From assembly GCA_016787445.1 (NCBI GenBank), contig JAEUTQ010000082.1, positions 62,001 through 126,000 on the forward strand: a stretch of 64,000 bases of DNA, given 5' to 3'. The position numbers and the translations under genes were made by a program. Source of the DNA: Bacteroidia bacterium. GTDB taxonomy: Bacteria; Bacteroidota; Bacteroidia; B-17B0; Aurantibacillaceae. The notes beneath the pieces are model-generated. The model was not told where the DNA came from and did not search any database. It worked only from the letters and a program-made list of their open reading frames with translations. Shown piece after piece: positions 11,143 to 46,530 of this stretch (positions are counted from its first letter, which is position 1; each line of letters opens with the position of its first letter).

Positions 11143-12525
11143 TTAGAATTTAATACCGATAACTAAAATATCATCTACTTGTTCATGTGTGCCTTTCCAG
11201 CTATCGATTGATTTCTCAATTCTTTGTTTCTGCTCGTTCATGTTTAATTTATAAGTTTCAGAGAAAAGCTCTCTTAATCTTTTTGAAGAGTATTTCTTTC
11301 CTTTTTCACCGCCAAACTGATCAGCATAACCATCTGTATAAAGATACAACACATCCCCTTCTGAATAATTCAATTCAATCTCTTCAAACACCTTTTCACC
11401 GGTGCGCATTCCTCCCATAGAGTATTTATTCCCCCTTATTTCTTTTAGTTCATTATTCTTAACAAATACAACGGGACGTTTTGCAGACGTAAGTATAAAC
11501 TGATTTTTAGCTTTATTGACTTTAATTAAACTTAAATCCATCCCGTCTTGAACTGAACCGTCTGTGTCTTTTTGTTGCTTAAGGGTAAAGTTTATCTGCT
11601 TGTCCAATTCATTCAATATTTCAGAAGGCTTCGTGATTTTATTATCGATTACAGTTTGATTTAACAAACTGCTTCCAATTACCGTCATAAAAGCGCCGGG
11701 AACGCCGTGTCCTGTACAATCGGCACAAACTAAAATATACTCATCACGATTCAATTCATGAAACCAGAAAAAGTCACCACTTACAATGTCTTTTGGCTTA
11801 TAAAAAATAAACGATAAAGGAATGCTGCGATAAATGGTTTCTTCATGGGGTAAAACCGCATACTGAATTCTTTTAGCGTAATTAATGCTATCCTGAATAT
11901 CCTTATTCTTAATCTCTAATTCCTTACTTTTTTCTTCAATTTGATTGTGCTGATTCTTGATTTCTTGTTCTGCCTCAGTTCTTGTTTTAATAAACACCCA
12001 AACAATAACGATGTTAAGCAAGAAAGGGACTATAATTTCTAATGGCGTACCTTGATACTTTTCAGATTCTGGTATTTCCAAAAACTGTGAAAAATAAGAA
12101 ACAATAACAGCGATAATTTGCATAACAACTGTAAGAATTATCCCCCAGGTTCGGCCAAATAGAAAAAACACAAAAAGTATATACACCATTACCCAAAAGC
12201 CCACAGTTACATCAGCCTTACCTTGTTGAATCGCCATTTCCGAGCTTGATGTGATTATTTGCTGAATAACATACCATATTGACGCCAACTTTACGCTTTC
12301 CTTGAACTTTAAAATGAAAGGAATGGCCAATAGAGCAGAAACACCGAATGTTAACACATAAGCATGATAATAGAAACCACGAAACCAAGCAGAAATATAA
12401 AACGCTGTGCCTATAAAGAGGAAAAAGATGGAATAATGATATAACAGCTCAATCTTCGATCGCTCAAAAACATCTTTAGTTTTTGATAAATAGTCGCCTA
12501 TGAACCACCTTTTTAATTGAGTCAT
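11143..12525 (-). CDS. Multi-TM SpoIIE/PP2C-family phosphatase
   Basis: This 460-residue protein has about seven hydrophobic helices in residues ~25-185, a coiled coil (~185-215) and a SpoIIE-type PP2C domain. Motifs are PKDIVSGDFFWF, CADCTGHGVPGAFM and YLYTDGYADQFGG, which supply the metal-binding aspartates. The C-terminus WKGTHEQVDDILVIGIKF matches the ends of the three other SpoIIE proteins in this window. Such phosphatases usually act on anti-sigma-factor antagonists (STAS proteins) in response to membrane or redox cues. It is monocistronic and divergent from paaZ. Confidence 0.9.
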   Translation of the reverse strand: MTQLKRWFIGDYLSKTKDVFERSKIELLYHYSIFFLFIGTAFYISAWFRGFYYHAYVLTFGVSALLAIPFILKFKESVKLASIWYVIQQIITSSSEMAIQQGKADVTVGFWVMVYILFVFFLFGRTWGIILTVVMQIIAVIVSYFSQFLEIPESEKYQGTPLEIIVPFLLNIVIVWVFIKTRTEAEQEIKNQHNQIEEKSKELEIKNKDIQDSINYAKRIQYAVLPHEETIYRSIPLSFIFYKPKDIVSGDFFWFHELNRDEYILVCADCTGHGVPGAFMTVIGSSLLNQTVIDNKITKPSEILNELDKQINFTLKQQKDTDGSVQDGMDLSLIKVNKAKNQFILTSAKRPVVFVKNNELKEIRGNKYSMGGMRTGEKVFEEIELNYSEGDVLYLYTDGYADQFGGEKGKKYSSKRLRELFSETYKLNMNEQKQRIEKSIDSWKGTHEQVDDILVIGIKF

Positions 12526-26622: not shown

Positions 26623-26689
26623 ATTAGAGCTAGATAAAACAAATACTAAATATTAATTTCACAACAGGCCCCTCTTTTAACATCCTTTG

Positions 26690-27466
26690 ATGAATTTTAT
26701 AAAATATAGTTTTATTCTTTTTGTTATTTCACCTTATTTATATTCACAAGAAAATAAAGTAATTCTAAGTAAAATTGATAGCTCTAATATTGCTAATCAA
26801 AAGGAACTTAATGAAAAATCAAAAAAAGCCACATTAGAAGAACTGAGCAGTTCCTGTGATGGAAAATTAAATAAAATCGCTAATGACTTTACTTTAAAGA
26901 AAAATAGCGGGACAAGTGAAGGTTGGTATCATTATAATTCAAATTTAATAAGAGCTCCTTTCTACATTACAGCGCCCGTTTCAACAAAAGGGCATATTTA
27001 CATAAAGGCAAAATATACAGGAGCGAAATTCATTAATTGTACAAGAATACGGGTAAAAATCAAAAATCACTCATGGGAGACAAAACCACTCTTAAAGGAA
27101 AGTAAATATATCACAAGAAAAAATTCGGGTTCAGTTTATTATGAAACTTTGAATCTTTTCTCTTATAAAAATGGGTCTGACTTTGAAGTTAGAAGCATGA
27201 TGGTAATCTCAGCTATAGCGAATTCAAATATTGAAGACGAGATAACAATTGTCTTTATTGGAGAAGAAGAAAATGTAGAAGTTAAGTTATCAAATGATAA
27301 TATTAAAGCTATCAAGAAATGCTGGGAGCTATCTCAATGTATTACATTTGGGAAAAACAATTATTCCAGTTATACATTTGTACGTGGAAAACATGGAGGA
27401 ATTACTACAATATTAATACCCAATGACGGATATACACAGTCTGATATGGCAGGGACTGTTGATTAG
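26690..27466 (+). CDS. Secreted protein of unknown function at the left edge of the cassette array
   Basis: This 258-residue protein has a signal peptide (FIKYSFILFVISPYLYSQ). The body is rich in beta-type segments, with no motif I recognise. The ATG at 26690 is preferred over the TTG one codon earlier. It ends ~12 nt before a half site of the cassette-array repeat (27478-27560), so it may be the first cassette with a damaged site, or a host gene into which the array abuts. It is much more AT-rich than the neighbouring namZ, like the cassette genes. Confidence 0.6.
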   Translation: MNFIKYSFILFVISPYLYSQENKVILSKIDSSNIANQKELNEKSKKATLEELSSSCDGKLNKIANDFTLKKNSGTSEGWYHYNSNLIRAPFYITAPVSTKGHIYIKAKYTGAKFINCTRIRVKIKNHSWETKPLLKESKYITRKNSGSVYYETLNLFSYKNGSDFEVRSMMVISAIANSNIEDEITIVFIGEEENVEVKLSNDNIKAIKKCWELSQCITFGKNNYSSYTFVRGKHGGITTILIPNDGYTQSDMAGTVD

Positions 27467-27477
27467 TAATTATCATA

Positions 27478-27560
27478 ATTTTTGTATCTTCATATAACCT
27501 TTTGTGGTTGGAGATAGTGGACGTTCGAAAATCCCACCGAACCCCAACCCCTTAACTGAT
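27478..27560 (+). repeat. attC-like half site a (3' half only)
   Basis: It contains the TTTGTATCTTCATATAAC element and a 3' arm (GGTTGGAG...CCCCAACC) closely resembling sites h and j, ending in a divergent R' (CTTAACTG). There are only ~12 nt between the upstream stop codon and this element, so R'' and the 5' arm are missing. It marks the left end of the recognisable array. Confidence 0.6.
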
Positions 27561-27623
27561 AGCACTCACTTATAATAATCGAAAAATACTATTATAATTT
27601 ACTTTACAATGCAAGGATAAAAA

Positions 27624-28187
27624 ATGGATACACGTATAAGAATTTCGTTAGACGAATTTAAAACATTTACAACTACCGAACATAAATATCCACTCTCAGA
27701 TTATTTCGACAAATTTGTCGATCATCTTGCTAATGATATTCTAAACATAAATACCGGTGCTGAGTTCTACAAAAAACTGACACGTGGTCAAAGGATTCTT
27801 TGGAGTTATAGCAACCTAACTGGTCAAATAGAAAATGGCGGTATAAATCAATTTTATTGGAATTATGGTTCCGACTATTTTGAAGACGTGAAAGATGTAA
27901 TGTCTATAATCAAAGACACAAAGTTTACCTCACTCATCTTTAAATACCAAGAAAAGTTTTTAAAGTCAAAAGAGCTTTTAATTAATTACAAATACCTAGA
28001 CAAAAAAGAACCTGAACTAAAACTAGGCCAATACGATCCTAATGCGGAATACGTGAATTATTACGGCCTCTGGAGTAATACATTTGGCGGTAACGACCTA
28101 GACAGTTATTATTATTCTAACAGCAAGACGTTGGACCAATTTATTATTGATTATATAAATAATAATCCTGAAGAATTTATAAAATAA
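27624..28187 (+). CDS. Cassette 1: DUF4375 (DMP19-type) protein
   Basis: This 187-residue cytosolic, mostly helical protein carries the DUF4375 signature IENGGINQFYWNYGSDYFED in the middle (residues ~70-90). DUF4375 covers DMP19-like proteins; DMP19 of Neisseria mimics DNA charge and binds a repressor, but most members have no known role and often occur in accessory or polymorphic-toxin contexts. It lies between half site a and site b, with a start 6 nt after GGATAA. Confidence 0.75.
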   Translation: MDTRIRISLDEFKTFTTTEHKYPLSDYFDKFVDHLANDILNINTGAEFYKKLTRGQRILWSYSNLTGQIENGGINQFYWNYGSDYFEDVKDVMSIIKDTKFTSLIFKYQEKFLKSKELLINYKYLDKKEPELKLGQYDPNAEYVNYYGLWSNTFGGNDLDSYYYSNSKTLDQFIIDYINNNPEEFIK

Positions 28188-28189
28188 CT

Positions 28190-28377
28190 AGTACTAAAAC
28201 CACATTTACAATATACGGGCAATCACGGGTTATCGCTTCAGCCGCAATGCATTCTACGCAGACAGAATATTTGTTGCGGCTTTCGCTAAAAAACATTTAT
28301 CTTTAAATATAGTTTTTCGGGCATAGACTGTTGAGGGCAAAAAAGCCGCACAGCGTAAATCCGGGGAACGTTAGTGG
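28190..28377 (+). repeat. attC-like site b
   Basis: The 5' part is GTACTAAAAC, then CACATTTACAATATACGG; the 3' part is CCGCACAGCGTAAATCCGGGG, then R' GTTAGTGG (28370). The arms ATTTAC-N2-T-N-T-N-CGG are complementary. Inside are GGTTATCGC, an AGCCGCAA/TTGCGGCT hairpin and TTTATCTTTAAA. It is close to site i. Confidence 0.8.
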
Positions 28378-28408
28378 TAAAACATTGTTGAATGGTAATG
28401 ATTCTAAC

Positions 28409-28900
28409 ATGACAAGTAAACTCCGTTATAAAACCTCTTGGCCATTATTCAAATTAAATAAATTTATTCTTCCTATTGTCTTTTTAATAATTTGTCTCCG
28501 GTTTCAAGCAGACGAATGGACTTTTGTTGCAGTTGGAATTTGGCTTTTATTTGAAATTGCTGACTTAGGATACAAAGAGTATAAATTATATACAGACAAA
28601 ATTGTAATAAGTAAAAAGCACCTTCTTTTTCCAATTAATAAGATTGAATTCGAATTACCTTTAAAGCGTTTAATAGATATTGAGTTTGAGCCTGGCTTCT
28701 TCGATAAAGCAACATTTATTGCTTCAACAATCGCTACATTATTAAATTTTCGTGGACGAGGTAAAGCAGATAACGACCATGTTGTAAATATCACTTATTA
28801 CAACGAGTTCACTAAAGAAACCCATACTGAAACTTTTCAATTCGACCACAGATTTACTGAATTACCAGACATAATTAAAAAAACACTACCTGTTAAATAA
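28409..28900 (+). CDS. Cassette 2: membrane-anchored protein of unknown function
   Basis: The ATG at 28409 is chosen (163 residues); an in-frame TTG at 28331 lies inside site b and would add site-derived residues. Two hydrophobic stretches (residues ~17-32 and ~38-52) precede a soluble C-terminal part (~60-163) with an alternating beta pattern reminiscent of PH-like domains in small bacterial membrane proteins. No catalytic motif is visible. It begins 32 nt after the R' of site b. Confidence 0.7.
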   Translation: MTSKLRYKTSWPLFKLNKFILPIVFLIICLRFQADEWTFVAVGIWLLFEIADLGYKEYKLYTDKIVISKKHLLFPINKIEFELPLKRLIDIEFEPGFFDKATFIASTIATLLNFRGRGKADNDHVVNITYYNEFTKETHTETFQFDHRFTELPDIIKKTLPVK

Positions 28901-28942
28901 AATCAGAGGCCAGATATGCAAGACATAGCTGATTGACAGAAA

Positions 28943-29118
28943 TACTATATATACCACATTTACACTATGTGGACGGACACTGGTCATCGCTTGAGCCACA
29001 AAGCCTGCTAAGAAGAAATTATATTTATTATGGCTTTCGCTAAAAAACATTTGTATCTTTAAGTATACGTTTCGGTAGCCGCAATCATTAACGTCGGCTG
29101 CACGCGGAACGTTGGCTT
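28943..29118 (+). repeat. attC-like site c
   Basis: It has TATATACCACATTTACAC at the 5' side, a GGTCATCGC box, CGCTAAAAAACATTTGTATC, and a 3' arm ending in ACGCGGAAC and R' GTTGGCTT (29111). The R'' box is degenerate. The last ~65 nt are almost identical to sites e and g. Confidence 0.72.
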
Positions 29119-29166
29119 CAAGTGCCGCGACCAGACAGACAGACGACTCTAAATATTATAACTTAT

Positions 29167-29631
29167 ATGAAAAGATTGACAGTAATTTTTGTTTTACTAT
29201 TTCTTAAGACTATTCATATCAATGCGTGTCAATGTGGACAAATACTTTCAGCTAATAAAGCCTTTAAAGCGGCCGAAGTTATTGTTTCGGTTAAAGTGCT
29301 TAAAGTTTTATCTTCCATTGACCCTAAAGAAAAAGTAATTTCAAAAAGCGGCGATACCTTAATTAGAGAACCTGTTTATGGATACTCTAAACTATTGCTC
29401 GTGACAAAGACTTATAAAGGTGCGCTGACAAGTGACACAATAATTATTGACGGTGATAACTCGAACTGTGAATTTGCTCTTGAGGTTGGTAAATCCTACA
29501 TTATATATGCAGACTTTAAAAATGGTCACATCCAGACAAACCGGTGTACAAGAAGTGGACAACTTGCAAATCATCCCGACATCACATTTTTAGAACGCAA
29601 ACTTAAGGGACAAAAGAAAAACAAGACTTAA
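29167..29631 (+). CDS. Cassette 3: secreted TIMP/NTR-like cysteine protein
   Basis: The ATG at 29167 gives 154 residues with a signal peptide ending near IHINA and mature N-terminus CQCGQ. The pattern (N-terminal CxC, a strand region VIVSVKVLKV, then TYKG, CEFALEVGKSYIIYAD and NRCTRSG) resembles NTR/TIMP-like domains found in bacterial secreted proteins, with four cysteines suited to two disulfides. The role is unknown. A longer GTG frame from 29122 starts too close to the site and lacks a leader. Confidence 0.72.
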   Translation: MKRLTVIFVLLFLKTIHINACQCGQILSANKAFKAAEVIVSVKVLKVLSSIDPKEKVISKSGDTLIREPVYGYSKLLLVTKTYKGALTSDTIIIDGDNSNCEFALEVGKSYIIYADFKNGHIQTNRCTRSGQLANHPDITFLERKLKGQKKNKT

Positions 29632-29650
29632 ACTTTGTGGCGTCACCAGA

Positions 29651-29835
29651 CAGCTAACAGCACATTTACCTTATGCGCGGGAACGTCGGTCATCGCGGCG
29701 CGCAAGTGCTAAGGCCCCTTCGGGACTTTTTATTTGCGGCCGCTAAGAAACATTTGTATCTTCATATTAACGTTAGTGGGTTTAGACAGGTGATGCTACG
29801 AAAGCGCACAAGGTAAATCTGCAAAACGTTATAGC
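29651..29835 (+). repeat. attC-like site d (best arm pairing)
   Basis: R'' CAGCTAAC (29651) is followed by AGCAC and the arm ATTTACCTTATGCGC. The 3' arm GCGCACAAGGTAAAT (14 of 15 positions complementary) is followed by CTGCAAAAC and R' GTTATAGC (29828). It has a GGTCATCGC box, a terminator-like AAGGCCCCTTCGGGACTTTT hairpin and TTTGTATCTTCA between the arms. Confidence 0.88.
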
Positions 29836-29959
29836 GTATAGGGGCGGATAAATCTTCGTAAACAAATTTTTATCTCAATAATAGCTGATGTGATATACTA
29901 AGCAATTCATTTGCAAACAGACAATGTTTTGATTAAATTTATGCTAGACTCAAAACAAC
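29836..29959 (+). other. Long untranslated leader of cassette 4
   Basis: Between site d and the ATG at 29960 lie 124 nt with no ORF and no close match to the other cassettes, whose leaders are mostly 5-70 nt. It is AT-rich with a short G-rich start. It may hold a cassette-specific promoter or leader; nothing conclusive was seen. Confidence 0.4.
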
Positions 29960-30169
29960 ATGAATACAAAAATTCTTTTCGCCTTAATAATTAGCTTTAT
30001 TGTGACAGCTTGTAAGAAAACGTATACATGTAGTTGCTCAAATCCAGGTGGTGTTTTTAAGACATATGAAATAAAAGACACTAAGAAAAAAGCCGAGCAA
30101 AAATGCAGCGAGTACTCCAAGGAATATCAATCAGTTCCTTTTTCAGAATCAGGCTGCTATTTAAATTAA
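29960..30169 (+). CDS. Cassette 4: small lipoprotein
   Basis: This 69-residue protein has a lipoprotein leader (LFALIISFIVTACKK) and a short mature part with YTCSCSNPGG and two more cysteines. The pattern TCxCxxPGG followed by a Lys-rich helix and a C-terminal Cys recurs in small Bacteroidota lipoproteins of unknown function. It lies between sites d and e. Confidence 0.72.
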   Translation: MNTKILFALIISFIVTACKKTYTCSCSNPGGVFKTYEIKDTKKKAEQKCSEYSKEYQSVPFSESGCYLN

Positions 30170-30194
30170 TCTTACATTCTTACTGTAGACATTC

Positions 30195-30401
30195 ATACGG
30201 TTCATAAGCGTTATGCGCTCTACGAAGTTGTAAAAGTGGCGCGCGGCTTCGGGCTGATCATGCTTCGACAAGCTCAGCACAGGTTTTGTTGCCGGCGCGT
30301 AGCAAAAAGTTGGGACTGAGGTAAAATTTTTATTTGTATCTTTAAGTAAACGTTTCGGTAGCCGCAATCATTAAAGTCGGCTGCACGCGGAACGTTATAG
30401 G
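30195..30401 (+). repeat. attC-like site e, apparently interrupted
   Basis: The 3' half is intact (TTTGTATCTTTAAGTAAACG, arm, R' GTTATAGG at 30394) and almost identical to c and g. The 5' half is poorly matched and contains CTTCGACAAGCTCAGCA near 30265, a sequence that looks like a dispersed genomic repeat. R'' is not recognisable with confidence. Confidence 0.65.
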
Positions 30402-30468
30402 TAATTGGCGGGGACATTTCCGTTGACTAATTGCTAGCAGACAAATAACAAATAAAGCCATCGAAAAC

Positions 30469-30699
30469 ATGACCGACAAGGTGACAATCGAATTAACAAA
30501 AGACGAAGCATTGGTTCTCTTCGACTTCCTTGGACGCTTTAATCAAGTCGACCACAAAAATATATTTGAAGACCAAGCAGAGCAAAAAGCACTTTGGGTA
30601 GTTGAAGGCCAACTTGAAAAGACTTTAGTTGAGCCTTTTATGCCAAATTACATTGAGCTAATAAAAGAATCCCGTGACAAAATTCGTGACGAAGAATAA
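30469..30699 (+). CDS. Cassette 5, first gene: small acidic protein
   Basis: This 76-residue, soluble, acidic, helical protein opens with VTIELTKDEALVLFDFLGRF and continues with FEDQAEQKALWVVEGQLEK and a VEPFMPNYIEL segment. Similar short proteins with this pattern exist in diverse bacteria without known function. It starts 68 nt after site e and is followed 19 nt later by a second gene in the same cassette. Confidence 0.7.
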   Translation: MTDKVTIELTKDEALVLFDFLGRFNQVDHKNIFEDQAEQKALWVVEGQLEKTLVEPFMPNYIELIKESRDKIRDEE

Positions 30700-30718
30700 T
30701 TAAAGCGAACTCTTTAAA

Positions 30719-31045
30719 ATGACAATTTTAGACAAGGCAAAAAATTACTACCGGACAAATTCACCTGATTTAGACTCGTTTCTTGAAACAACTTCTTTTA
30801 TGGACACAAGCACAAAATATCCAAATAGTGTTGTAATAAAGTTCGGAGTAAATAAGCTTATCGGAGAAGTTTCCGTATGGCAAAATGATTACGAAAGTTA
30901 TATAGAAAGCGAATCTCTTGACCTTACTAATCCAGACAAAGAAATGGTTTGCTCATACAAGGCTGTTAATAGTGATACAGTTGTTGACGAATTAACCAAA
31001 CAGTTTGACGCATTGCGTAAGCTGTGTGGCGCCAACAACCTATAA
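30719..31045 (+). CDS. Cassette 5, second gene: unknown protein ending inside attC
   Basis: This 108-residue soluble acidic protein has no recognised motif. Its last codons and TAA stop (31043-31045) lie within the R'' box of site f, so part of the C-terminus (GANNL) is encoded by the recombination site. It shares a cassette with the small gene upstream, so the two proteins may act together; no toxin or antitoxin signature is visible in either. Confidence 0.68.
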   Translation: MTILDKAKNYYRTNSPDLDSFLETTSFMDTSTKYPNSVVIKFGVNKLIGEVSVWQNDYESYIESESLDLTNPDKEMVCSYKAVNSDTVVDELTKQFDALRKLCGANNL

Positions 31046-31230
31046 CAGCGGTCGTGGCGACAATTTTTCTTTTGCGCTCCCACAGGCATCGCGCGGAAAA
31101 TTTGTCGGCCGAAGGCCGGACTTTAAACGCTAGCCCTAAAAAAGAAGTTCAAAATAAAATCATTATCTTTATTACAAGGTTTCTGGAAAGCGCAAAAGCA
31201 AAACTGCTCCAGTCCGCAAACCGTTAGCAC
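31038..31230 (+). repeat. attC-like site f
   Basis: R'' ACCTATAAC (31038) is a perfect complement of the start of its own cassette, GTTATAGGT (30394), and a poor match to the R' in the same site, GTTAGCAC (31223). The arms GCGGTCGTGG / CCAGTCCGC pair imperfectly. It contains GGCATCGC, a strong GTCGGCCGAAGGCCGGAC hairpin and TTATCTTTATTAC. Confidence 0.85.
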
Positions 31231-31283
31231 TAATAGGACAGACGACGACTCGGCCGATAAAAAAATAATCTTTCGACAATAAT

Positions 31284-31679
31284 ATGTTAGAATACTTAAA
31301 GACGAACTGGCTCAAATTAATACCTTTATTGCTAATTGTTTTAGTAGTCTTTTTTTGTTCGCGGACAAACAAACGAGTCGACAAACTTCGACATGATGGC
31401 AAATTGACTTTCGGACGGATTACAAAAATTGAAAAAGGGAATAAAGCAAAAATATTCTTTAATTATGAATTTCAAACTGCCAGCGGGACTGTTGTTTCCA
31501 ATAATGAAAGTGAGTTATTAAATAATTATAATTACTTCCTCAATAGGTACTTCCCAGTAATCTACGACATCGAAGATCCAAACAATAGCGAATTATTAAT
31601 AATTCCTCATCAATTTGAAGTTGTAGGTCAAGTTTTTCCTGACAGCCTCGCTTGGGTTAAAGCGTATATTGTAAAATAA
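31284..31679 (+). CDS. Cassette 6: membrane-anchored DUF3592-like protein
   Basis: This 131-residue protein has one N-terminal membrane helix (KLIPLLLIVLVVFFCS, residues ~11-26) and a small beta-rich domain (LTFGRITKIEKG, AKIFFNYEFQTASG, YFPVIYDIEDPNNSELLI) of the kind seen in DUF3592 proteins. Role unknown. Cassette 9 has a similar domain layout. The stop lies directly at the beginning of site g. Confidence 0.68.
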   Translation: MLEYLKTNWLKLIPLLLIVLVVFFCSRTNKRVDKLRHDGKLTFGRITKIEKGNKAKIFFNYEFQTASGTVVSNNESELLNNYNYFLNRYFPVIYDIEDPNNSELLIIPHQFEVVGQVFPDSLAWVKAYIVK

Positions 31680-31834
31680 ATACTTTATGCGGACACGGGT
31701 TATCGCTTAAGCCACAAAGCCTGCTAAGCAGAAAATATATTTGTTGCGGATTTAGTTAAAAAACATTTGTATCTTTAAGTATACGTTTCGGTAGCCGCAA
31801 TCATTAACGTCGGCCGCACACGGAACGTTAGCGG
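31680..31834 (+). repeat. attC-like site g (R'' missing)
   Basis: The site starts directly after the cassette 6 stop, with CTTTATGCGGACACGGG aligning to the inner arm of other sites; no R'' box precedes it. GGTTATCGC, TTTGTATCTTTAAGTATACG and R' GTTAGCGG (31827) are intact. The 3' half is almost identical to sites c and e. Confidence 0.72.
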
Positions 31835-31867
31835 TAATGCGCCAATACATCGAAATAAATTTGACCA

Positions 31868-32593
31868 ATGATACGAGCCATTAATTTTCTGTTCATCCTG
31901 ACCATAATATTTACGGTTTCGTGCTCGTCTCCAACAGACAAAAAAACAAACTCAGAAATTAAAATTGACACTAAAAAAACTACTAATTCATCATTAATAG
32001 TTGACAGTTCCTCAGTTCCAGAAAAGGTTGACAGTCCTTCTTCTCTATTCCTTGAAATGACAAACTATCTTGACAGCTCAGGTTATTCGTTTGATACAAC
32101 TCGCTTGAAAAAAGTTCACTATCGTTTACAAAACAAAAATGGATTAGTTTTCGCGGATAAGTATTTTTATAAAATAGTCCTACCTGACCATTCTGCATTT
32201 GACACGGTAGAAGTCCTCAAAGGTTATAGTGGCATAGACATTAAAACTATAAAAAAGGACTTACTCAAAAAAGCAAAGGGCATTTTTGCCTACTTCTATT
32301 GCGAGAAAATCAAAACAGACGAAGTCGTAAGAGACGGAGTAATTGAAGAATGGCAATTTCATAACGAGGAAGACGCTGAAAAAGCAGGCCTTGAATTAAA
32401 CAGAATTCGAAATTTTACATTCTTTTACACAGCTTCTTATGTTACAAGGACAAAGAATAATATTTATGTTTTTCACAATCGCGCTGCCTTTAACCGAGTT
32501 CATCAAAACACCATAAAACACTTTTATAAACTTTTTGATGTTGTTTATCCGCAAAATGATTACCCGAAAGGTGACCAAGTGACAAATCATTAA
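31868..32593 (+). CDS. Cassette 7: lipoprotein of unknown function
   Basis: This 241-residue lipoprotein has leader FLFILTIIFTVSCSS and a Ser/Thr/Lys-rich linker (~22-55). A folded domain of ~180 residues follows with no motif I recognise; it alternates helices and strands and has aromatic residues near the C-terminus (FYTASYVTRTKNNIYVFHN). Asp is mostly GAC. It lies between sites g and h. Confidence 0.72.
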   Translation: MIRAINFLFILTIIFTVSCSSPTDKKTNSEIKIDTKKTTNSSLIVDSSSVPEKVDSPSSLFLEMTNYLDSSGYSFDTTRLKKVHYRLQNKNGLVFADKYFYKIVLPDHSAFDTVEVLKGYSGIDIKTIKKDLLKKAKGIFAYFYCEKIKTDEVVRDGVIEEWQFHNEEDAEKAGLELNRIRNFTFFYTASYVTRTKNNIYVFHNRAAFNRVHQNTIKHFYKLFDVVYPQNDYPKGDQVTNH

Positions 32594-32640
32594 AGTAACT
32601 CGGTAGACGTTTGACGTATCAAACTGTGTGTGGCGCACAA

Positions 32641-32828
32641 CTGCTAACACACGGTGTGGCGACCAGCGCGCGGACTGAGGGTCATCGCGGCGCGCAGAAG
32701 AAATGGCCCGCAAGCGGAATTTAATTTGCGGGCGCTAATTTTGTTTGGTATCTTTAATAAACGTTTTAGGGTGTAGACGGTTGAGTGTTTCAAAGCCCGC
32801 CGATCGCCAACCGTGAAACCTTTAGCGG
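32641..32828 (+). repeat. attC-like site h (cut-site G replaced by T)
   Basis: R'' CTGCTAAC (32641), then the arm CACGGTGTGGCGACC, pairs with GATCGCCAACCGTG before R'. R' reads TTTAGCGG (32821), with T in place of the usual G. It contains GGTCATCGC, a GCCCGC/GCGGGC hairpin and TATCTTTAATAAACG. Confidence 0.85.
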
Positions 32829-32849
32829 TAATTAATCGAACAGACCAAA

Positions 32850-33377
32850 ATGCTAAAAACAATTAAAGACATTTTCACAAAAACCAAGCAATCCGACAAA
32901 TCGTGGGAAAAAAACCGACTTCGTTTTGACAGCATAATTAGCGACAAGCGATTTAACTTTCTTGAAAGCATTTATAAAAGACTTTTCGATAATGATAATA
33001 GGTTGACAAACGATGAAATTCTTGACGCTTATTTCAAATTTTCCGACAAAATTCAAACAAACTCGTTTGCAGCAGCCGAACTTGAATGGGTGACTATTTC
33101 TGTTCTATGCCATTTCCGTCCAAACCTGACAGAGAAATTAATAAGGAGAGGTTTGTTGAATATAGTTTATTCTCTAGGTGACGACATAGATTGGTTCACA
33201 GTAGAACAATTTATAGACAGGAGAATTTTGGATGACAAAGCGGAACCTTATGGAGGACTACCACCAAATATTGGACAAGAATGGCTTAAAAACTTATTGC
33301 CGGTTCAAAAGGAAATGGTGCAGAAAGTTTTAGTAGACGTTATTGAAGAAAACAGAAAAGAACGTGAAAATATTTAA
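32850..33377 (+). CDS. Cassette 8: cytosolic helical protein of unknown function
   Basis: This 175-residue soluble, helix-rich protein has no signal peptide or membrane helix. It contains FLESIYKRLFDNDN, SFAAAELEWVTISVLCHF and YGGLPPNIGQEWL; no known family recognised. It starts 21 nt after site h and ends 3 nt before R'' of site i. Codon choice (GAC for Asp, ACA for Thr) differs clearly from core genes in the window. Confidence 0.68.
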   Translation: MLKTIKDIFTKTKQSDKSWEKNRLRFDSIISDKRFNFLESIYKRLFDNDNRLTNDEILDAYFKFSDKIQTNSFAAAELEWVTISVLCHFRPNLTEKLIRRGLLNIVYSLGDDIDWFTVEQFIDRRILDDKAEPYGGLPPNIGQEWLKNLLPVQKEMVQKVLVDVIEENRKERENI

Positions 33378-33570
33378 CTACCGCTAACACCACATTTACA
33401 ATATGCGTGCAGTCACGGGTTATCGCTTCAGCCGCAAAGCCTGATACGCAGACAGAAAATTTGTTGCGGCTTTCGTTCAAAAAACATTTATCTTTAAATA
33501 AAGTTTTCGGGTATAGATTGTTGACGGCAATTAGCCTTAAAACGTAAATCAGGGAAATGAACGTTAGTAC
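33378..33570 (+). repeat. attC-like site i
   Basis: R'' TACCGCTAAC (33379) is a 9-of-10 complement of its own cassette start TTTAGCGGTA (32821), whereas the R' of the same site is GTTAGTAC (33563). It contains CACATTTACAATATGCG, GGTTATCGC, AGCCGCAA/TTGCGGCT and TTTATCTTTAAA. It is closely similar to site b. Confidence 0.87.
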
Positions 33571-33610
33571 TAATTACCGCGGACATTTCGTTAGACGAAT
33601 TGACATACAT

Positions 33611-33934
33611 ATGAAATCTTTATCGAAACGTTATATTATTATTTCATATGTTATTGGAATCATCCTTATTATTATTCTTTCGTGGAGTAATTTTATCACG
33701 AAAGAAACAAAGGAAGAATTAATTACGCACGGAAAAGTTTGTAAAGCGACAATTATAAAAACTGCTAATAGGAAAAGAGGTCTTGACATCCAATATGAAT
33801 ATTTTGTAGCGGGTAAAACATATACCAGCTGGGACAAAGTTTATAATGATAGTTCGCAAACTGGGGACGAAATTGAAATAGTTTATCTTCCTAACGAGCC
33901 TTCTATAAGCAGACTAAAATCTGAAATAGAATAA
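33611..33934 (+). CDS. Cassette 9: membrane-anchored DUF3592-like protein
   Basis: The ATG at 33611 is used (107 residues); an in-frame ATG at 33557 lies inside site i and would displace the helix. One membrane helix (IIISYVIGIILIIILSW, ~9-25) precedes a compact beta-rich domain (KVCKATIIKTANRKRG, IQYEYFVAGKTYTSW, GDEIEIVYLPNEPSIS) typical of DUF3592-like proteins. Function unknown. Confidence 0.72.
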   Translation: MKSLSKRYIIISYVIGIILIIILSWSNFITKETKEELITHGKVCKATIIKTANRKRGLDIQYEYFVAGKTYTSWDKVYNDSSQTGDEIEIVYLPNEPSISRLKSEIE

Positions 33935-33981
33935 AATTTATGCGGACACGTGGCTAAACGTGTCTTTGTGGCGGTAACTAA

Positions 33982-34170
33982 CTACTAACACACGGTGTCG
34001 CGAGCAGCGGGGCGGATTGATGGTCATCGCGGCTAGCGGAATTATGGTCGCTGACGCGAAATATTTTTGCTGACGCTAATTTTGTTGAGTATCTTTAATA
34101 AAACATTTTGGGTTATACTTCGGTACGAGCAATAAAGTCCGCCGAACGCCAGCCCCGAAACCGTTTGCAG
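33982..34170 (+). repeat. attC-like site j
   Basis: R'' CTACTAAC (33982) with the preceding GGTAACTAA mirrors its own cassette start GTTAGTACTAATTACC (33563); the R' in the same site is GTTTGCAG (34163). It contains GGTCATCGC and GAGTATCTTTAATAAAAC. Its 3' arm resembles site h. Confidence 0.83.
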
Positions 34171-34191
34171 CAATAGCCGCGAAAAATTATT

Positions 34192-34674
34192 ATGACAGTT
34201 TCTTATATATTATTCGCATTGTTTGTACTATTTGTTTTCTTTCGGGTTTTTATTCAATGGAATAATGTCGAAAAAAAACCTGAGGACATTGTTGAAGAAA
34301 TTCAAAATTCATTCAATGCCCGATTGACAGAAACTACTTTAAAACAGTTTGACCACTTTAAAACTTTGAATTCCCCTGAAATATTAAAATCATTAGAGCT
34401 TTACAAAGATGGCTTAACAGTAAATGTTGTTTTTGTAAGGTATAAATATGTAGTTCCAAATAAAATCCGTTGGTCACCGCCTGACGATATTTCTATTTAT
34501 GCTTTCTTTATTATATCAGCAGACAGCTTTAATGTAGGCGACTATCCTATTATTGATACAACAGAAGTTAAAAACAATTCTGTTCTAATCCGTTTTGACA
34601 GAGTACCTATTTCATTAAAAAAGACGACATCAGAAATAAAACAAGTTCTTTCGACTGTAAAAAGTTTTGCATAA
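34192..34674 (+). CDS. Cassette 10: membrane-anchored protein of unknown function
   Basis: This 160-residue protein has an N-terminal membrane helix (VSYILFALFVLFVFFRVF, residues ~3-20), then a soluble domain of ~135 residues with no family I recognise. The C-terminal part contains strands around TVNVVFVRYKYVV and SVLIRFDRVPISL. It starts 21 nt after site j. Confidence 0.68.
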   Translation: MTVSYILFALFVLFVFFRVFIQWNNVEKKPEDIVEEIQNSFNARLTETTLKQFDHFKTLNSPEILKSLELYKDGLTVNVVFVRYKYVVPNKIRWSPPDDISIYAFFIISADSFNVGDYPIIDTTEVKNNSVLIRFDRVPISLKKTTSEIKQVLSTVKSFA

Positions 34675-34706
34675 CTGTGGACACCTAAGTAATAATTAGT
34701 GAAGTA

Positions 34707-34971
34707 CAGCAAATAACAAAGTGTTAGCCTCATTTTGTTCTTCGTAGATAATTTCTCGGCTGATAACAAACTGTGCGAATTTAAAAATCTTACCGCGCCT
34801 TCCGTTTTTTGTCCATGCCTTGTTCTGCATCGAGGTGGATAAAACATCACAAGCAGACGCTTATTCGCTAGCCTTATTTCGGGTCTGACACTATTAAATA
34901 ATTTGTATCTTTATTCTAACAAATTTTCTGGAAATCGCAGGTAATACCGTCAACACCCGGAAAGTTAGTGG
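34707..34971 (+). repeat. attC-like site k (degenerate 5' half)
   Basis: CAGCAAATAAC (34707) partly complements its own cassette start GTTTGCAG. The 5' half is long and diverged: GCATCGAGG is the only trace of the conserved box. TTTGTATCTTTATTCTAAC and R' GTTAGTGG (34964) are clear. Confidence 0.65.
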
Positions 34972-34978
34972 TAATATT

Positions 34979-35584
34979 ATGAAAACAACAACCACAATAT
35001 TTATTTTGACATCAATATCATTTCTCTCTTGTAATAATGGCGACAAAATAAAGGGAGACGATTCAATTAGACAAATAACCATAAGCACTGAATCATCAGT
35101 AAAAGGGGAAAATAAAGTGAACGACATGCAGGAACTGTTTACTGACTCAATAAATAATCTAACAATCGGAGACTGTTTTATTTTAAAATCTGAAAAACTA
35201 AATAAAGGTTTCGTATTGACCCGTATTCGAAAAGACCTATATGATTTTACCCCGGTAACATTAGATTCAACCAAAAAGGATTTAAGTAATTTCACCAATG
35301 GCAATATGAGAATGGTTCCTGTCGCCTCAATGAAAGGGGTTGTTGAAAACTGGGGAACAGAATGTTTAAGTTTAATGGGACAAGAAGATTTAAACGAATT
35401 TTTAAAATCATTTAAAAAGGTTGGACAATTGGAATTTAAAGATAAAGCTCCAAGAGTGAGTTCATCTTGCTACTTAACCGAATATAGTGCCTTGAAATTA
35501 AAAGAGTTCTTTAAGGAACAAGAAATGATGTGGATAAACCAAAACAAAACAGTAGGCCTCGATTCACTCGTTATGCAAAAGTAA
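34979..35584 (+). CDS. Cassette 11: lipoprotein of unknown function
   Basis: This 201-residue lipoprotein has leader TIFILTSISFLSCNN and a mature domain with no recognised motif, containing TIGDCFILKSEKLNKGFVLT and a Cys in a WGTECLSLMGQ segment. The ATG is only 8 nt after R' of site k, so any promoter must lie inside the site. It is the last gene of the array; no full site follows, though CATTAACAC at 35592 may be a remnant R''. Confidence 0.7.
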   Translation: MKTTTTIFILTSISFLSCNNGDKIKGDDSIRQITISTESSVKGENKVNDMQELFTDSINNLTIGDCFILKSEKLNKGFVLTRIRKDLYDFTPVTLDSTKKDLSNFTNGNMRMVPVASMKGVVENWGTECLSLMGQEDLNEFLKSFKKVGQLEFKDKAPRVSSSCYLTEYSALKLKEFFKEQEMMWINQNKTVGLDSLVMQK

Positions 35585-35726
35585 CACCACCCATTAACAC
35601 AGTCCTTTCATCAGAAGGCATAATCATTCATTACTCAACTCAATCTATTAATAACACCAACTCACCTTAAGTTTAATCTCAATTTTCTCCATTATTTTTT
35701 ATCTTTATTCCATTAATTAATATACC

Positions 35727-40611: not shown

Positions 40612-43600
40612 TTATCTTTCAATTACCGCTTTTTTAACGGCAATGATTTTGTCGTTTTGTTTAATCTGCACCATGTAAACACCGGCCGCAAAACTTTCGG
40701 TATTGATGACTAAATGCTGATTTAATGATTTAACTGAATAAACAGTTTGTCCGAGTGTATTTACTAAATCCACCGTCGTTTCAGATTTTGGCAAACTATT
40801 TAAATCGATGTTCATGACTGAATTAGCAGGATTTGGATAAATACTTATGCGAGATGCTAAAGCATTTAAATCCGCAATAGCAGTTGCACCAATTTTATCG
40901 TTCGATTGATTACTGCGTGTTTTGGTTTTTAATACCATTGGTGAATTGACACCGTATTTTGCGGTAGCATTACAGTTAAAGCCGCTGGCATCTACAAACC
41001 ATTTTACACCCAATGGCCAGAAAGATGAATAAAACGGATCGTTCGCTAAATTTCCTACGGTGCTGGCAATTAATGTTTCAGTACCGGTGGCAATCGTTCT
41101 GCGTTTTACATTATAAATAGTTACCGGTGGCACGCTTGATTCAATCGCATAACTATTCCAATTGAAGTTACCATTCATTTGATCCTGAATAAAAATAGTT
41201 TCGTGCCATTTACTCATGGCGCTGTAATTACCGCAAGAATCGCGTAATTGTAATTTATATTTATAATAAGTTAGATTAGGATCGCCGTTAGCCGGACCAA
41301 CACTTCTGTTCGTATCTACGTACATGCTAAATGCAGACTTATGTACCGATGCAATACGTTTGTAAGTATTTAAGCTTACTTCACGGTAAACGATGAAGCT
41401 ATCGGCAGATGGATATAAAGTTTTCTCCCAATAGATTTCATTATTAACACTTAAACTGTCAACCGTAACCTGACAAATATCCGGAGTTGGCGGATTAACT
41501 AAATTAACTGTAAATGTAGCGGAGTTGCGACAACCGTTAGATCCGGTAGCGCTTACTGTATAAACGGTATTTACTGTTGGTGTAACTGAAATGGTTTGGT
41601 TAACAACTGTACCCGGCGACCAAGTATAAGTGGATGCGCCATTACCCGTTAAAACTTGTGTTTTGTTTAAACACACTAAATTTTTTCCACTGATTGTAAC
41701 AGTTGGATTATTAATTAGCGCTACGTTAATCGTTCCACTGTTTACGCAGTTATTAGAATTCGTTCCGGTTACAGTGTAAACTTGTGTTGCTGTTGGTGTA
41801 AAGGCTACTCCGTTGCTTACTCCGCTACTCCAAGTATACGTTGAGGCACCGGCTCCGTTTAAGGTTAACAAACTTCCTGTACACACAGCCGTTGGTGAAG
41901 CCACACCGGTAACGGTTGGCAATGGATTAACCGTTATACGATTTACACTGGTAGTGGTAGTTCCACAAGCGTTAGTGGCAGTTACGATTACACTAAAAGT
42001 ATTAGAAGCTGTAAAACTCATTGAGGTATTAGTACCTGTAGTTGGAGAAAAACTAACACCGCTTGCTCCTACTACAGTCCATCCATAATTAGTAAGAGGT
42101 TCAGTTGAGGATAAAGTTAAAGGTGATGTTGTAATAGTTCCGGCACATAAAGTGTAATTAGATGCCGTTGTAGTTACAGTTGATGGTAAGGTACAACTTA
42201 GCTTTTGAATATATCCGTCGGTTTGTCCTACAGCTGTTAAATTCGCAACGCCTGCATCCGGGTTAAAATCAACGGTAGTCCAAAATGTTCCAATTGTATA
42301 CACATTTCCCTGTGTGTCTAAATCAATGTCGGAAGGATAATCACCAAGGTTATTGCTACCAAATGATTTTGCCCATACAAAATTCCCATTGTTATCCCAT
42401 TTCAAAACATAACAATCCTGATTAGTACCTTGAGCTTGCAAAGTATAAGTTCCTGCATTCGGATCAAAGTCAACTACTCCATCAAAGGCACCGGTTACAT
42501 AAACATTTCCTCCCGGATCCAATACACATTCGGGAGCACTTTGTGTATTCATACCTCCAATTTGTTTAGCCCATTGATAAGCGAGTGTTGAATTTAACTT
42601 CAATACAAAAGCATCCGCACTTCCTAAAGAACCTAAAGATTGGTTGAGTGGTCCGGGATCCATGTCACAAGCCGCACTGAATTGTCCGCATACAAATACG
42701 TTGCTATTAGCATCCAGCGTAATACCAACACCATAATCAGTTCCGGTTCCGCCCATCACAGCAGCAGAGTTAAATCCACCGGTGCCGCAAGTTAATTTCA
42801 CAACGTAAAAATCACTTCCGCCTTGTGAGGTATAAGTAGGACAAGTACATCCCGGTGAAAGAGTAACGGTTGTACCTGCAAAAATTCCTGTACAATAAAC
42901 GTAGTTATTTAAATTATCAACTTTAAGATCATAACCGTAATCAGCTACAGTTCCTCCCATGGATTGTGCCCAAACATAATTTCCATTGATATCGTATTTA
43001 CCAACGAATATATCATTTGAACCACGAATTATTAAAGTGTTTGTTGTTGCACTTGGATTAAAATCCGCTGTCCCAATAAAAGTCCCGGTGATATAAACGT
43101 TAGCGTTAAGGTTATCAATATCAATGGCGCTTGCCCAGTCGGAACCTGTACCACCCATATTACGTGCCCAAAGAAAATTTCCTAGAGAGTTTAATTTAAA
43201 CATACACACATCGCTACTACCTGCAGATGTAAGATTAGTAACACCGGCTCCCGGATCAAAATCGACTGTACCGTTAAAACTACCTACAACATAAATATTG
43301 GAAGAAGCATCGCAAATAACATCTGCTGCAACTTCATCAGTTGTAGTACCAAGGCGACGAGCCCATACGAAATTTCCTGCAGAAGTTAATTTCATAATAA
43401 AGATATCATCGCCACCTGCAGTAGCTGTTAAATTGTAAACACCTGCGCCCGGGTCGAAATCGACCGTACCTGAAAATGAACCAACGGCAATAACATTTCC
43501 TGCCGCATCAATGGCAGTAGCACGCCAATCGTCGTAAGTAGGACTACCGAACGAACGGGCCCACACATAATTTTGAGATTTTAAAAGATTAGTTGAACCA

Positions 43601-43776: not shown

Positions 43777-46530
43777 CTATTGAATAACTACTTTATTTAT
43801 GCTCTCCTGATTACCTTGCTTAACGATTAACATGTATACACCCGATTGAAGTGTAGAAACATTAATCACTAAATGTTGATTTAATGAACGCGTTTCATAA
43901 ACTAGTTGTCCAAGTACATTTCTAATTTCAACGGTTATCGATTCTTTATTTAATAAAGTCAAATCAACATTAATTAAATCTTTAGCCGGGTTTGGATACA
44001 CCTGAATGCTTTCATTAAATATAGCTGAAGAATTAATTCCTGTCGGGAATAATTTATCGTTAGATTGATTACTGCGTGTTTTGGTTTTTTGTACTAACAC
44101 TTTTGCTGTTGGATTACAGTTAAAACCAACCGCGTCAACAAACCATTTTACACCTAAAGGCCAGAATGTATTATAAGCAGGGTCGGTTGCTAAATTTCCT
44201 GTAGTACTTGTTACTAATGTTTCGGTACCTGTTGCAGGCGTACGACGCTTTAAATTATAAATAGAAATTGGTGTTGCCGTTGTTGATTCAATCGCGTAAC
44301 TATTCCAATTGAAGTTACCGTTCAATTGATCCTGAATAAAAATAGTTTCATGCCATAAACTCAAAGCGCTTAAGTTTCCGCAGCTATCTTTGATTTGTAA
44401 TTTATATCTGTAGTAACTGGTGTTTGGGTTTCCATTAGCAGGACCAATACTTCTATTGGTATCTACATACATACTAAACGCTGTACGGCTCACTGCGCCA
44501 ATACGCGTGTAATTATTTAAACTTGTTTCGCGATACACGATAAAACTATCGGCACGCGGATACAAGGTTTTCTCCCAATAGATTTCATTGTCGTTTCCTA
44601 AACTATCAACAGTTACCATACAAATATTCGGGGCTTGCGCGCCGGATTGAACGGCAACTGTACTCGATTTAGAACAACCGTTATTTAAATTCACATTTAC
44701 GGTATAAATGGTTGTTCCAAAATTTCCGGTAACAGATGGTGTTAAAATCGTTGAACTACTTAAGTTGGTAGTTGGCGTCCAAACCACAGAAGTCGCTGCC
44801 GGACTACAAGTAGCATTGATAACAGCTTTTTGTTTACATAATAAGTTTAAGTTTGGCCCGGCACTCACACTAGCAGGAAGAAGTGTAATACTTACACTGG
44901 CAGGCGTTCCAACACAAGAGCCGGTTGTTCCTGTTGCTGTGTAAACTCCACTAACTGTTGGCGTAATAATAATATTCGTTCCGGTTGCTCCGGTACTCCA
45001 TGAGTAAGTTGTAGCACCTGTTGCAGTTAATGTTGCAGAATTACCTGTACATACCGACATTGGAGCAATTATTCCGGTAGTTAAACAACCAATTTTTGAA
45101 AGAAATCCGTCGTAATTACCGGTTGTTGTGATACTGTTGGTTGAAAGGATGCTTAATCCATCAAAATAACCCGCAACATAAATGTTACCTACATTATCTA
45201 TATCCATAGAAACCGGAATTTCATTGGCGGTACCTGTAGATTTTGCTGTCCATTGAAATGATCCTGAGGTGTTATATTTTGCGACCAATAAATCTGTTGT
45301 TCCTAAAAAAACATTATTTAATGTTGTAGTACCAACAGCGCATGATGCACTCTCAAAATAACATGAGAAATAAGGATTTCCGGAAGCGTCAATAGCAACG
45401 TTTGATCCGTAATCATGCCCGGTACCTCCTGCTCGTACAGCCCATTGTTGTGTTCCGCCAGAGTTATATTTTGCTAAAAATCCATCATAACCACCTAAAT
45501 TATTTAATGAGAATGAACCAAAATTTATTGGCGCACCTTGAAATTGACCTGCTACAAAAACGTTATCACTTGCATCTAAATCCAAATCGGTAACGTAATC
45601 ATTAGATGTACCTCCCATATTTCTTGACCATACAGAAGTTCCCATTGCACTGTATTTTGCTAAAAAAATATCTGTACTTCCATAACTAGTTAAAACAGTA
45701 GAACCAATAGTAGTAGTAGCCGTCATGATAGTACCGGTAAATGAACCAGTAAAATGTGGATTTCCTGCCGCATCAACTGCTACATCTGTCATATATTCAT
45801 CTACATTCACTGAACCGGTAGAACGTAACCAAGTGAAACCTCCTGCATTTGTTAAACGTGCTAAAAACACATCATGCTTACCTGCATTGCTGGTGTTAGC
45901 AACTGTATTGGTTCCGATTGCCATTACTGTCCCGTTAAAAGCTCCTCCAACATACACGGCAGACATAGCACTTGAATAGGCTAATCCGTTATTTGTCTCT
46001 TGAGATGGTGTACCAAAAGAAGTAAACCATTGTGGTACACCAGCACCATTAATACAGGTCACATAAACATCATTACTGCCGGATGCTCCACCTGCGTTTC
46101 CATAGCTAAATGGAGGAAGTGAAATGGTTTGACTGGTATAATATCCACTCACGTATACTCGTCCTGATGGATCAGTTGTAATACCGCCAACGTATTCATT
46201 GTTTGCACCGGCGATTCGCTGTGCCCATTGAACAACGCCATTCGGATCGTATTTCGCAACATAAACATCGCTCCCGGTTACGCCGGAGTTAGCAATATTA
46301 ATCGTACCAACCATGATTGATGAACTCTGAAATGAACCGGCAACATAAACGTTTCCGGAAGCATCCACACACGTTTTAGCGTTAAAATCATTTCCGGTAC
46401 CTCCGGCCTTAACAGCCCATGCCCAGGCATTTGTTTGCGATTGAGCTCCAAAAGAAAGTAATAATGTAAATAATGCGAAAAGTTGAATTCTTACATCAAC
46501 ATAAGAAACAATTTTTGTACTGAATTTCAT
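43777..46530 (-). CDS. T9SS-exported beta-propeller (SBBP repeat) protein 2
   Basis: This 917-residue paralogue of the neighbouring protein has a signal region, about eight SBBP-like repeats (WAxxxGGTGNDxxxDxxGNVYVAGxFQ, ~35-480), two short Ig-like segments, the same FN3-like block (DSFIVYRETSLNNYTR, HETIFIQDQLNGNFNWNSYA) and a T9SS sorting domain (QVYPNPAKDLINVDLTLL ... SGVYMLIVKQGNQESINKVV). The propeller repeats diverged more than the C-terminal half. The terminator between the genes suggests separate transcripts. Confidence 0.9.
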   Translation of the reverse strand: MKFSTKIVSYVDVRIQLFALFTLLLSFGAQSQTNAWAWAVKAGGTGNDFNAKTCVDASGNVYVAGSFQSSSIMVGTINIANSGVTGSDVYVAKYDPNGVVQWAQRIAGANNEYVGGITTDPSGRVYVSGYYTSQTISLPPFSYGNAGGASGSNDVYVTCINGAGVPQWFTSFGTPSQETNNGLAYSSAMSAVYVGGAFNGTVMAIGTNTVANTSNAGKHDVFLARLTNAGGFTWLRSTGSVNVDEYMTDVAVDAAGNPHFTGSFTGTIMTATTTIGSTVLTSYGSTDIFLAKYSAMGTSVWSRNMGGTSNDYVTDLDLDASDNVFVAGQFQGAPINFGSFSLNNLGGYDGFLAKYNSGGTQQWAVRAGGTGHDYGSNVAIDASGNPYFSCYFESASCAVGTTTLNNVFLGTTDLLVAKYNTSGSFQWTAKSTGTANEIPVSMDIDNVGNIYVAGYFDGLSILSTNSITTTGNYDGFLSKIGCLTTGIIAPMSVCTGNSATLTATGATTYSWSTGATGTNIIITPTVSGVYTATGTTGSCVGTPASVSITLLPASVSAGPNLNLLCKQKAVINATCSPAATSVVWTPTTNLSSSTILTPSVTGNFGTTIYTVNVNLNNGCSKSSTVAVQSGAQAPNICMVTVDSLGNDNEIYWEKTLYPRADSFIVYRETSLNNYTRIGAVSRTAFSMYVDTNRSIGPANGNPNTSYYRYKLQIKDSCGNLSALSLWHETIFIQDQLNGNFNWNSYAIESTTATPISIYNLKRRTPATGTETLVTSTTGNLATDPAYNTFWPLGVKWFVDAVGFNCNPTAKVLVQKTKTRSNQSNDKLFPTGINSSAIFNESIQVYPNPAKDLINVDLTLLNKESITVEIRNVLGQLVYETRSLNQHLVINVSTLQSGVYMLIVKQGNQESINKVVIQ

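Follow-up and report, generated by a model that had tools for sequence, protein, structure and literature searches.

An integron-like cassette array in a Bacteroidia genome and its probable integrase, a tyrosine recombinase without the I2 insertion

Integrons are the best-known gene-capture platforms, and a 64,000-nucleotide stretch from a Bacteroidia bacterium (contig JAEUTQ010000082.1, positions 62,001 to 126,000; here called the window) raises the question of whether integron-like cassettes can be moved there, and by which enzyme. At about 26.6 to 35.6 kb, the window carries thirteen small open reading frames (ORFs), all on the + strand, with long related repeats between them. A first-pass annotation made from the sequence alone had described eleven attC-like repeats alternating with unrelated single-direction cassettes, that is, an "integrase-less" cluster of attC sites lacking integron-integrases (CALIN), and had guessed at a remote integrase. 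We put the probability at close to nine in ten that the window holds a partly decayed attC/cassette cluster of an integron-type system run by an IntI-related tyrosine recombinase, which lies on another contig, lacks the I2 insertion and serves both capture at attI and exchange between attC sites. In what follows, G000 is the source genome and G007 a congeneric genome, with C and L numbers denoting contigs and loci.

To describe the repeats, we built a covariance model from nine of them, six in the window and three beside the integrase gene on contig C74. It has CTAAC/GTTAG as the outer helix, separated by an unpaired spacer from the L helix inside, and 13 of its 17 pairs show compensatory changes. 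The model found the window repeats again, as ten full-length copies and one truncated copy (A, a 3′ fragment), with K recognized by its loop alone; the repeats are indeed related and point in one direction, but the count of eleven has to be read in this way. When every 5′ arm was paired against every 3′ arm, the own partner ranked first for D, F, H and J, and likewise for the three C74 sites. Mean own pairing was −21.6 versus −15.9 kcal/mol, and none of 20,000 permutations reached the own value. The complementary arms that the annotation had cited at 29664 and near 29804 are present, and the covarying helices, the own-arm pairing and the intact hairpins of D, F, H and J bear out the attC logic that it had proposed. 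Own-arm pairing is weak in B and I, and C, E, G and K are chimeric or degenerate; not all window repeats look functional, and the cluster appears partly decayed. Ten full-length sites with no integrase nearby nevertheless make it a CALIN, for which at least two are needed, and the ORFs on the + strand between them are the expected unrelated cassettes. An Rfam scan of the array returned no credible family, only one sub-threshold chance match. Scanned genome-wide, the model gave 43 matches up to E=1, mainly on C13, C14, C17, C50, C68 and C74.

Where, then, is the integrase? In G000 and 14 control genomes, every tyrosine recombinase matches the IntI model TIGR02249. The model being unspecific, we judged the integrase by its genomic neighbourhood, its fold and an alignment across the insertion region. 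No gene of G000 lies above the IntI cut-off; the best match is a 377-aa tyrosine recombinase on C74 (L008, 10118-11251), at 210 bits against a cut-off of 265, whose C-terminal end, ...YTHVSSVGIQKVISPFDSL, is like that of IntI. The same repeats stand directly after this gene on the same strand, at 11786, 12453, 13397 and up to the contig end, which makes the window array a satellite of an integron-like locus that does have an integrase. "Integrase-less" thus holds locally and fails genome-wide, while the guess of a remote integrase was a good one.

What the annotation did not foresee, and what we regard as the most important point, is that this cognate integrase lacks the insertion that defines IntI and that the R boxes deviate from RYYYAAC/GTTRRRY. 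The spacing from GKGxKDR to HxLRHS is 113 to 114 residues in fourteen IntI proteins (IntI1, phage-borne and Bacteroidota-phylum), 72 to 79 in 41 homologues of the new type (nearly all 72 to 73) and 76 to 79 in Xer proteins. Aligned to Vibrio cholerae IntI, the C74 integrase skips about residues 181 to 245; the absent stretch is the IntI-specific insertion of about 40 residues that holds the I2 helix. The catalytic R, K, H/R, H and Y positions are kept, and the predicted fold comes closest to V. cholerae IntI (2a3v), the best match, and to XerA. In a tree of 281 core columns, IntI forms a single clade (bootstrap 100) and the new type a group of its own (bootstrap 93 for the main set, 72 when all are counted, including one IS91-neighbouring recombinase), which joins IntI relative to XerC/D with a bootstrap of 85. 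Gain of I2 in IntI and its loss in the new type are not separable here because the outgroups are few.

Most copies of the integrase have an extra N-terminal domain with the pattern F.yn..li..iK..pGarWS.t.k.Wh.p. By sequence it resembles HARP weakly (best Pfam E 0.0016, in 3 of 32 members; PDB 4o66, E 0.05), and by fold it resembles the XPB damage-recognition domain (5tnu, 2fz4 and 6p4f, an XPB-Bax1-forked DNA complex), MutS-beta and HARP, matches that are weak but concordant. HARP, XPB damage-recognition and MutS-type folds read forks, junctions or mismatches, and we hypothesize that this domain replaces I2. The integrases of the two congeners, G000 (C74) and G007 (C2, L108), are just 57% identical, despite orthologous flanking genes at the window locus that are 97 to 98% identical, and the integrase itself seems to have been replaced or to evolve very fast.

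Is the association between integrase and sites a general one? A strict, structure-only detector for sites of 70 to 260 nt was run over 80 homologous integrase loci, superseding a looser version that gave up to eight opposite-strand matches per locus. These loci came from a scan of named genomes, including Flavobacterium species (type strains among them), Pedobacter, Pelobium, Kaistella, Algoriphagus, Cyclobacterium and others. The arrangement of an integrase with sites directly behind it recurs in other genomes: on the integrase strand, 108 strict sites lie in 347 kb of downstream sequence; the opposite strand has 1, and 661 kb of upstream sequence yielded 2. In many cases the contig breaks off no more than 1 kb past the integrase gene, as is to be anticipated where repeats interrupt assembly. 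In a second subgroup, the array lies divergently upstream of the integrase, as in classical integrons. Among 296 genomes/species of the class Bacteroidia, the integrase profile was found in 160 and sites in 216, the latter in 150 of the 160 genomes with the integrase versus 66 of the 136 without (Fisher p=3e-19). A sample of 29 genomes from other classes was picked for the presence of classical IntI; here the I2-less integrase occurred in 8 of 13 site-positive versus 2 of 16 site-negative genomes.

Some loci deserve separate mention. Two Chryseobacterium plasmids, NZ_CP041688 (L141) and NZ_CP094530 (L142), encode an I2-less integrase of about 50% identity, the former with at least one cassette site, and mobile versions of the system may thus exist. 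In Frigoriflavimonas, a block that repeats in tandem about every 239 bp (L217, 8034-9972) lies upstream of the integrase. The integrase contig binned as Azoarcus (L233; metagenome-assembled genome [MAG] Azoarcus sp. TD116_bin18) is probably a misbinned Bacteroidota contig.

The sites themselves are mostly hairpins of 124 to 200 nt, the commonest form being 126 nt long, and like attC sites they are inverted repeats with R and L boxes and an unpaired central spacer. Within a set of 235 unique strict sites, the L helix begins right after TAACA in 220 and ends three nucleotides before CGTTA in 205. The structure consists of a TAAC/GTTA helix, an unpaired spacer and a covarying helix of 13 + 6 bp with a positionally fixed A.C mismatch. 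An alignment of 40 sites has standard pairs in 91% of its pair cells and 210 double changes, where shuffles have 65; these figures are descriptive since the sites were chosen by pairing. The near-invariant A.C mismatch (31 of 40 sites, at a fixed distance from the core) and the strand and position bias are independent of that choice, and so are the signs of cassette mobility described below. Just 6% of strict sites match the R-box consensus RYYYAAC/GTTRRRY, and no 28-bp dif-like sites were among those detected in the 70 to 260 nt range. Loops of the window family are longer, and 38 of 72 sites carry the motif TTTG-N19-22-TAnnTTTR versus 0.7 in shuffles, although these sites are related and do not count as independent evidence. 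This motif (R1 family) matches the Bacteroidota promoter, so that a cassette's attC might supply the promoter for the gene behind it. A promoter in every attC loop was considered and, by eye, does not extend to Flavobacterium-type loops.

Our candidate attI is a conserved hairpin, with TATA(A/T)ACAAGTTA after it, that in most genomes stands immediately behind the stop codon of the integrase gene. In Flavobacterium denitrificans, a mer cassette is inserted exactly at this point, joined at G|TTA. The region behind the integrase looks different in G002 and G007, where the conserved hairpin was not seen.

Several observations point to movement of cassettes as units. The mer cassette, a MerTP fusion (NF033556, 311 bits against a cut-off of 180) plus an ArsR-type regulator, is 93 to 94% identical in F. 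denitrificans, Pelobium manganitolerans and a Bacteroidia MAG, hosts whose integrases are 57 to 62% identical. All three copies have the left junction G|TTAGTGGC; on its outer side lies the hairpin region next to the integrase gene in one copy and an unrelated attC in each of the other two. G000 and G007 share a cassette of 1,297 bp at 100% identity, which starts at the R′ core behind two unrelated attCs. In a G007 array (C1, L129; reverse-complement 6024-6351 and 11877-12204), there are two copies of one gene body that agree at 99% from R′ to R″ but have different attCs; classical integrons would not usually cross over at R″ in addition to R′. Altogether, 56% of shared-block ends fall within 6 nt of TAACA/CGTTA, versus 6% of random positions.

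A further signature lies in the cassette ends. We compared the ends of 151 cassette bodies with a median length of 755 bp. Nucleotides that follow GTTA at a cassette's start are complementary to those preceding TAAC at its own end at 5.02 of 6 positions, with a run of at least three in 136, versus 2.19 of 6 for shuffled partners. No such complementarity exists between the flanks of a single attC in its place in the array (2.34 of 6). Complementary own ends are the expected trace of a circular intermediate that crosses over at R′, and five window cassettes retain them. The window locus has itself turned over: between flanks 94 to 96% identical in the two genomes, the whole array of G000 corresponds in G007 to about 0.8 kb that holds half an attC and just one ORF, a different one, so that the comparison with a relative that the annotation had suggested did reveal different cassette content.

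The longest ORF lies on the cassette strand in 141 of the 151 bodies and on the opposite strand in 3. When 99 cassette proteins were searched against Pfam, only the type IX secretion tail (9) and MORN repeats (3) matched more than one protein among the 25 families listed; single matches include MerT, a lincosamide nucleotidyltransferase-like protein, an Mrr endonuclease and an efflux protein. This varied content is the usual picture for integron cassettes. One protein of cassette set A8 resembles lincosamide nucleotidyltransferases (PF21418), with a possible role in resistance. At L113 (G031, C43), several cassettes encode large proteins with an apparent type IX secretion tail, and cassettes may thereby supply surface or secreted proteins.

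Could the array nonetheless be a relic of a classical integron, its cassettes and attCs made by an I2-bearing IntI in other bacteria? Elsewhere in the phylum, classical IntI is widespread, with 105 of 395 genomes from other classes exceeding the cut-off, and the attC-like sites do share the plan of R, L and unpaired spacer. Among the IntI-positive genomes listed, however, only one belongs to the same class, and G000 has none over cut-off; the sites stand directly behind the I2-less integrase in many genomes and rarely fit the classical consensus. In the other-class sample, moreover, they track the I2-less integrase although all 29 genomes have classical IntI. We consider such an origin very unlikely.

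We give equally little credence to a scheme in which XerC/XerD, in the manner of pdif modules, or homologous recombination between repeats moves the cassettes while the I2-less recombinase has another job. Both Xer proteins are present in G000, and many attCs of a given genome resemble each other at over 90%, a likeness that homologous recombination could use. Yet long hairpins are not 28-bp dif-like sites, homologous recombination does not explain junctions at a 5-nt core with unrelated sequence outside, and neither process accounts for the tight linkage and co-occurrence of sites with the integrase. More improbable still are ordinary intergenic repeats, or hairpins like those of miniature inverted-repeat transposable elements, spread between fixed genes. 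Intergenic palindromic repeats of 120 to 200 nt are superficially similar, but they would not be expected on one strand (108 versus 1) with co-directional ORFs (141 versus 3), nor between gene bodies that are exchanged with exact core boundaries and have complementary own ends, and the congener has different genes at the window locus.

Several points weigh against an integron-type system run by the I2-less recombinase. Sixty-six Bacteroidia genomes hold sites without the integrase, and the strict detector picks by pairing, so that pairing statistics on its sites are not independent. The attI is read from conservation and one clear insertion, the HARP-like assignment of the N-terminal domain is weak, and some array-associated integrases have no such domain. 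Finally, the I2 helix is reported to be essential in IntI1 (PMC7790495), and an I2-less enzyme acting on folded attC must therefore work in another way.

With these points in mind, we propose that the C74 recombinase would capture circular single-gene cassettes at the hairpin-bearing attI behind its own gene and swap them among long attC hairpins marked by R″ TAACA, the conserved A.C mismatch and R′ CGTTA; the crossover point would be G|TTA. One folded strand would be the substrate, and the HARP/XPB-like N-terminal domain may help recognise the folded site. At the level of sequence, co-location, one-strand orientation, unit boundaries, an attI-joined cassette, own-end complementarity and locus turnover are all seen, and from them we infer that the C74-type integrase is the catalyst of cassette movement. 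We read the system as one that works like an integron and forms a distinct I2-less lineage, outside the classical definition because two tested features fail, the I2 domain and RYYYAAC/GTTRRRY. A broader proposal, to which we give even odds, is that this integron lineage is sister to classical IntI, occurs in about half of Bacteroidia species and recombines folded attC hairpins without I2 through another kind of fold recognition, possibly by the fused HARP/XPB-DRD-like domain (DRD, damage-recognition domain), representing either a pre-I2 state or a second origin of single-strand cassette recombination.

In the window, identity to G007 ends and resumes at the borders of a variable segment, the cassette array (26627-35612); all its features lie on the + strand. 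It opens with a 259-aa ORF without Pfam match (26687-27466), upstream of repeat A (27475-27541), a truncated attC comprising loop and 3′ part (model positions 100-164). There follow the ORF of a DMP19-like protein (PF14300; 27624-28187), the weakly paired site B (28189-28381), a putative membrane protein (28412-28900), the chimeric repeat C with arms of two site types (28946-29110; model match 28946-29085), a putative secreted protein (29149-29631) and the intact site D (29649-29839), whose R″ TAACA is at 29655 and whose R′ CGTTA ends at 29831. A small putative lipoprotein (29960-30169), similar to a gene present twice in the G007 array, precedes repeat E with its degenerate 5′ arm (30225-30405) and a two-gene cassette (30469-30699 and 30719-31045). 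Beyond the intact site F (31037-31234) come an ORF (31284-31679), the chimeric repeat G (31666-31838), a putative lipoprotein (31868-32593) and site H (32639-32832), with intact arms and an R′ core of CTTTA, not CGTTA. The array then continues with an ORF (32850-33377), the weakly paired site I (33379-33574), an ORF (33611-33934), the intact site J (33980-34174), an ORF (34192-34674), the degenerate repeat K (34717-34975), of which the loop motif alone matches, weakly (34896-34962), and the last cassette ORF (34979-35584). Outside the array, a 600-bp stretch occurs in two copies, 75% identical (40894-41492 and 44053-44639).

A parallel platform for gene capture would thus exist in over half of the sampled Bacteroidia species, many Flavobacterium among them, with a large and largely unread cassette pool that includes mercury-transport and lincosamide-transferase-like genes. 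According to IntegronFinder 2.0, an earlier survey had found only In0 in Bacteroidetes, to which one complete integron, in Salinibacter ruber, was added (PMC9024848). Published surveys tie integron function to the I2 insertion, whose helix is thought to let IntI handle single-strand hairpins, an idea untestable in IntI1 since deletion kills the enzyme (PMC7790495). With an integrase that naturally has no I2 and comes with hairpin sites of its own, this question becomes testable, and the system may show how integrons arose, because its integrase does without a part long held essential. In the open-access literature, preprints not covered, we found no published description of I2-less integrons in Bacteroidia.

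How does the system compare with known ones? The passages of Smyshlyaev et al. 2021 (PMC8138268) used here state that the insertion is essential for integron function, and there the I2-less members of the "integron-like" tyrosine recombinase subgroup are not connected with attC arrays. XerA and the family NF040815, named "site-specific tyrosine recombinase/integron integrase", come close, the C74 integrase scoring just above the cut-off (224 versus 220 bits) and a plasmid homologue being so annotated. The XerD of G000 passes too (227 bits), so that the name reflects sequence likeness and does not separate the two, whereas the new integrase is tied to cassette arrays. The pdif (XerCD) modules are alike in having small units between recombination sites and modular exchange, but their sites are 28-bp dif-like sequences on plasmids, with no dedicated integrase and no long hairpins. 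The closest likeness is to classical, sedentary chromosomal integrons, in which an integrase adjoins an array of single-gene, one-direction cassettes, the sites are hairpins with R and L helices, an unpaired spacer and a conserved unpaired base, crossover is at G|TT, insertion takes place at attI beside the integrase, a part for which the new system offers a candidate, and CALINs exist as satellites. The new integrase differs in having 72 to 73 residues where IntI has 113 to 114, with the insertion containing I2, and often a HARP/XPB-DRD-like N-terminal domain; in the main group its gene points towards the array, in classical integrons away from it. The core is TAACA/CGTTA with free but mutually complementary flanks, in place of RYYYAAC/GTTRRRY, and the attI candidate of the new system is itself a long hairpin.

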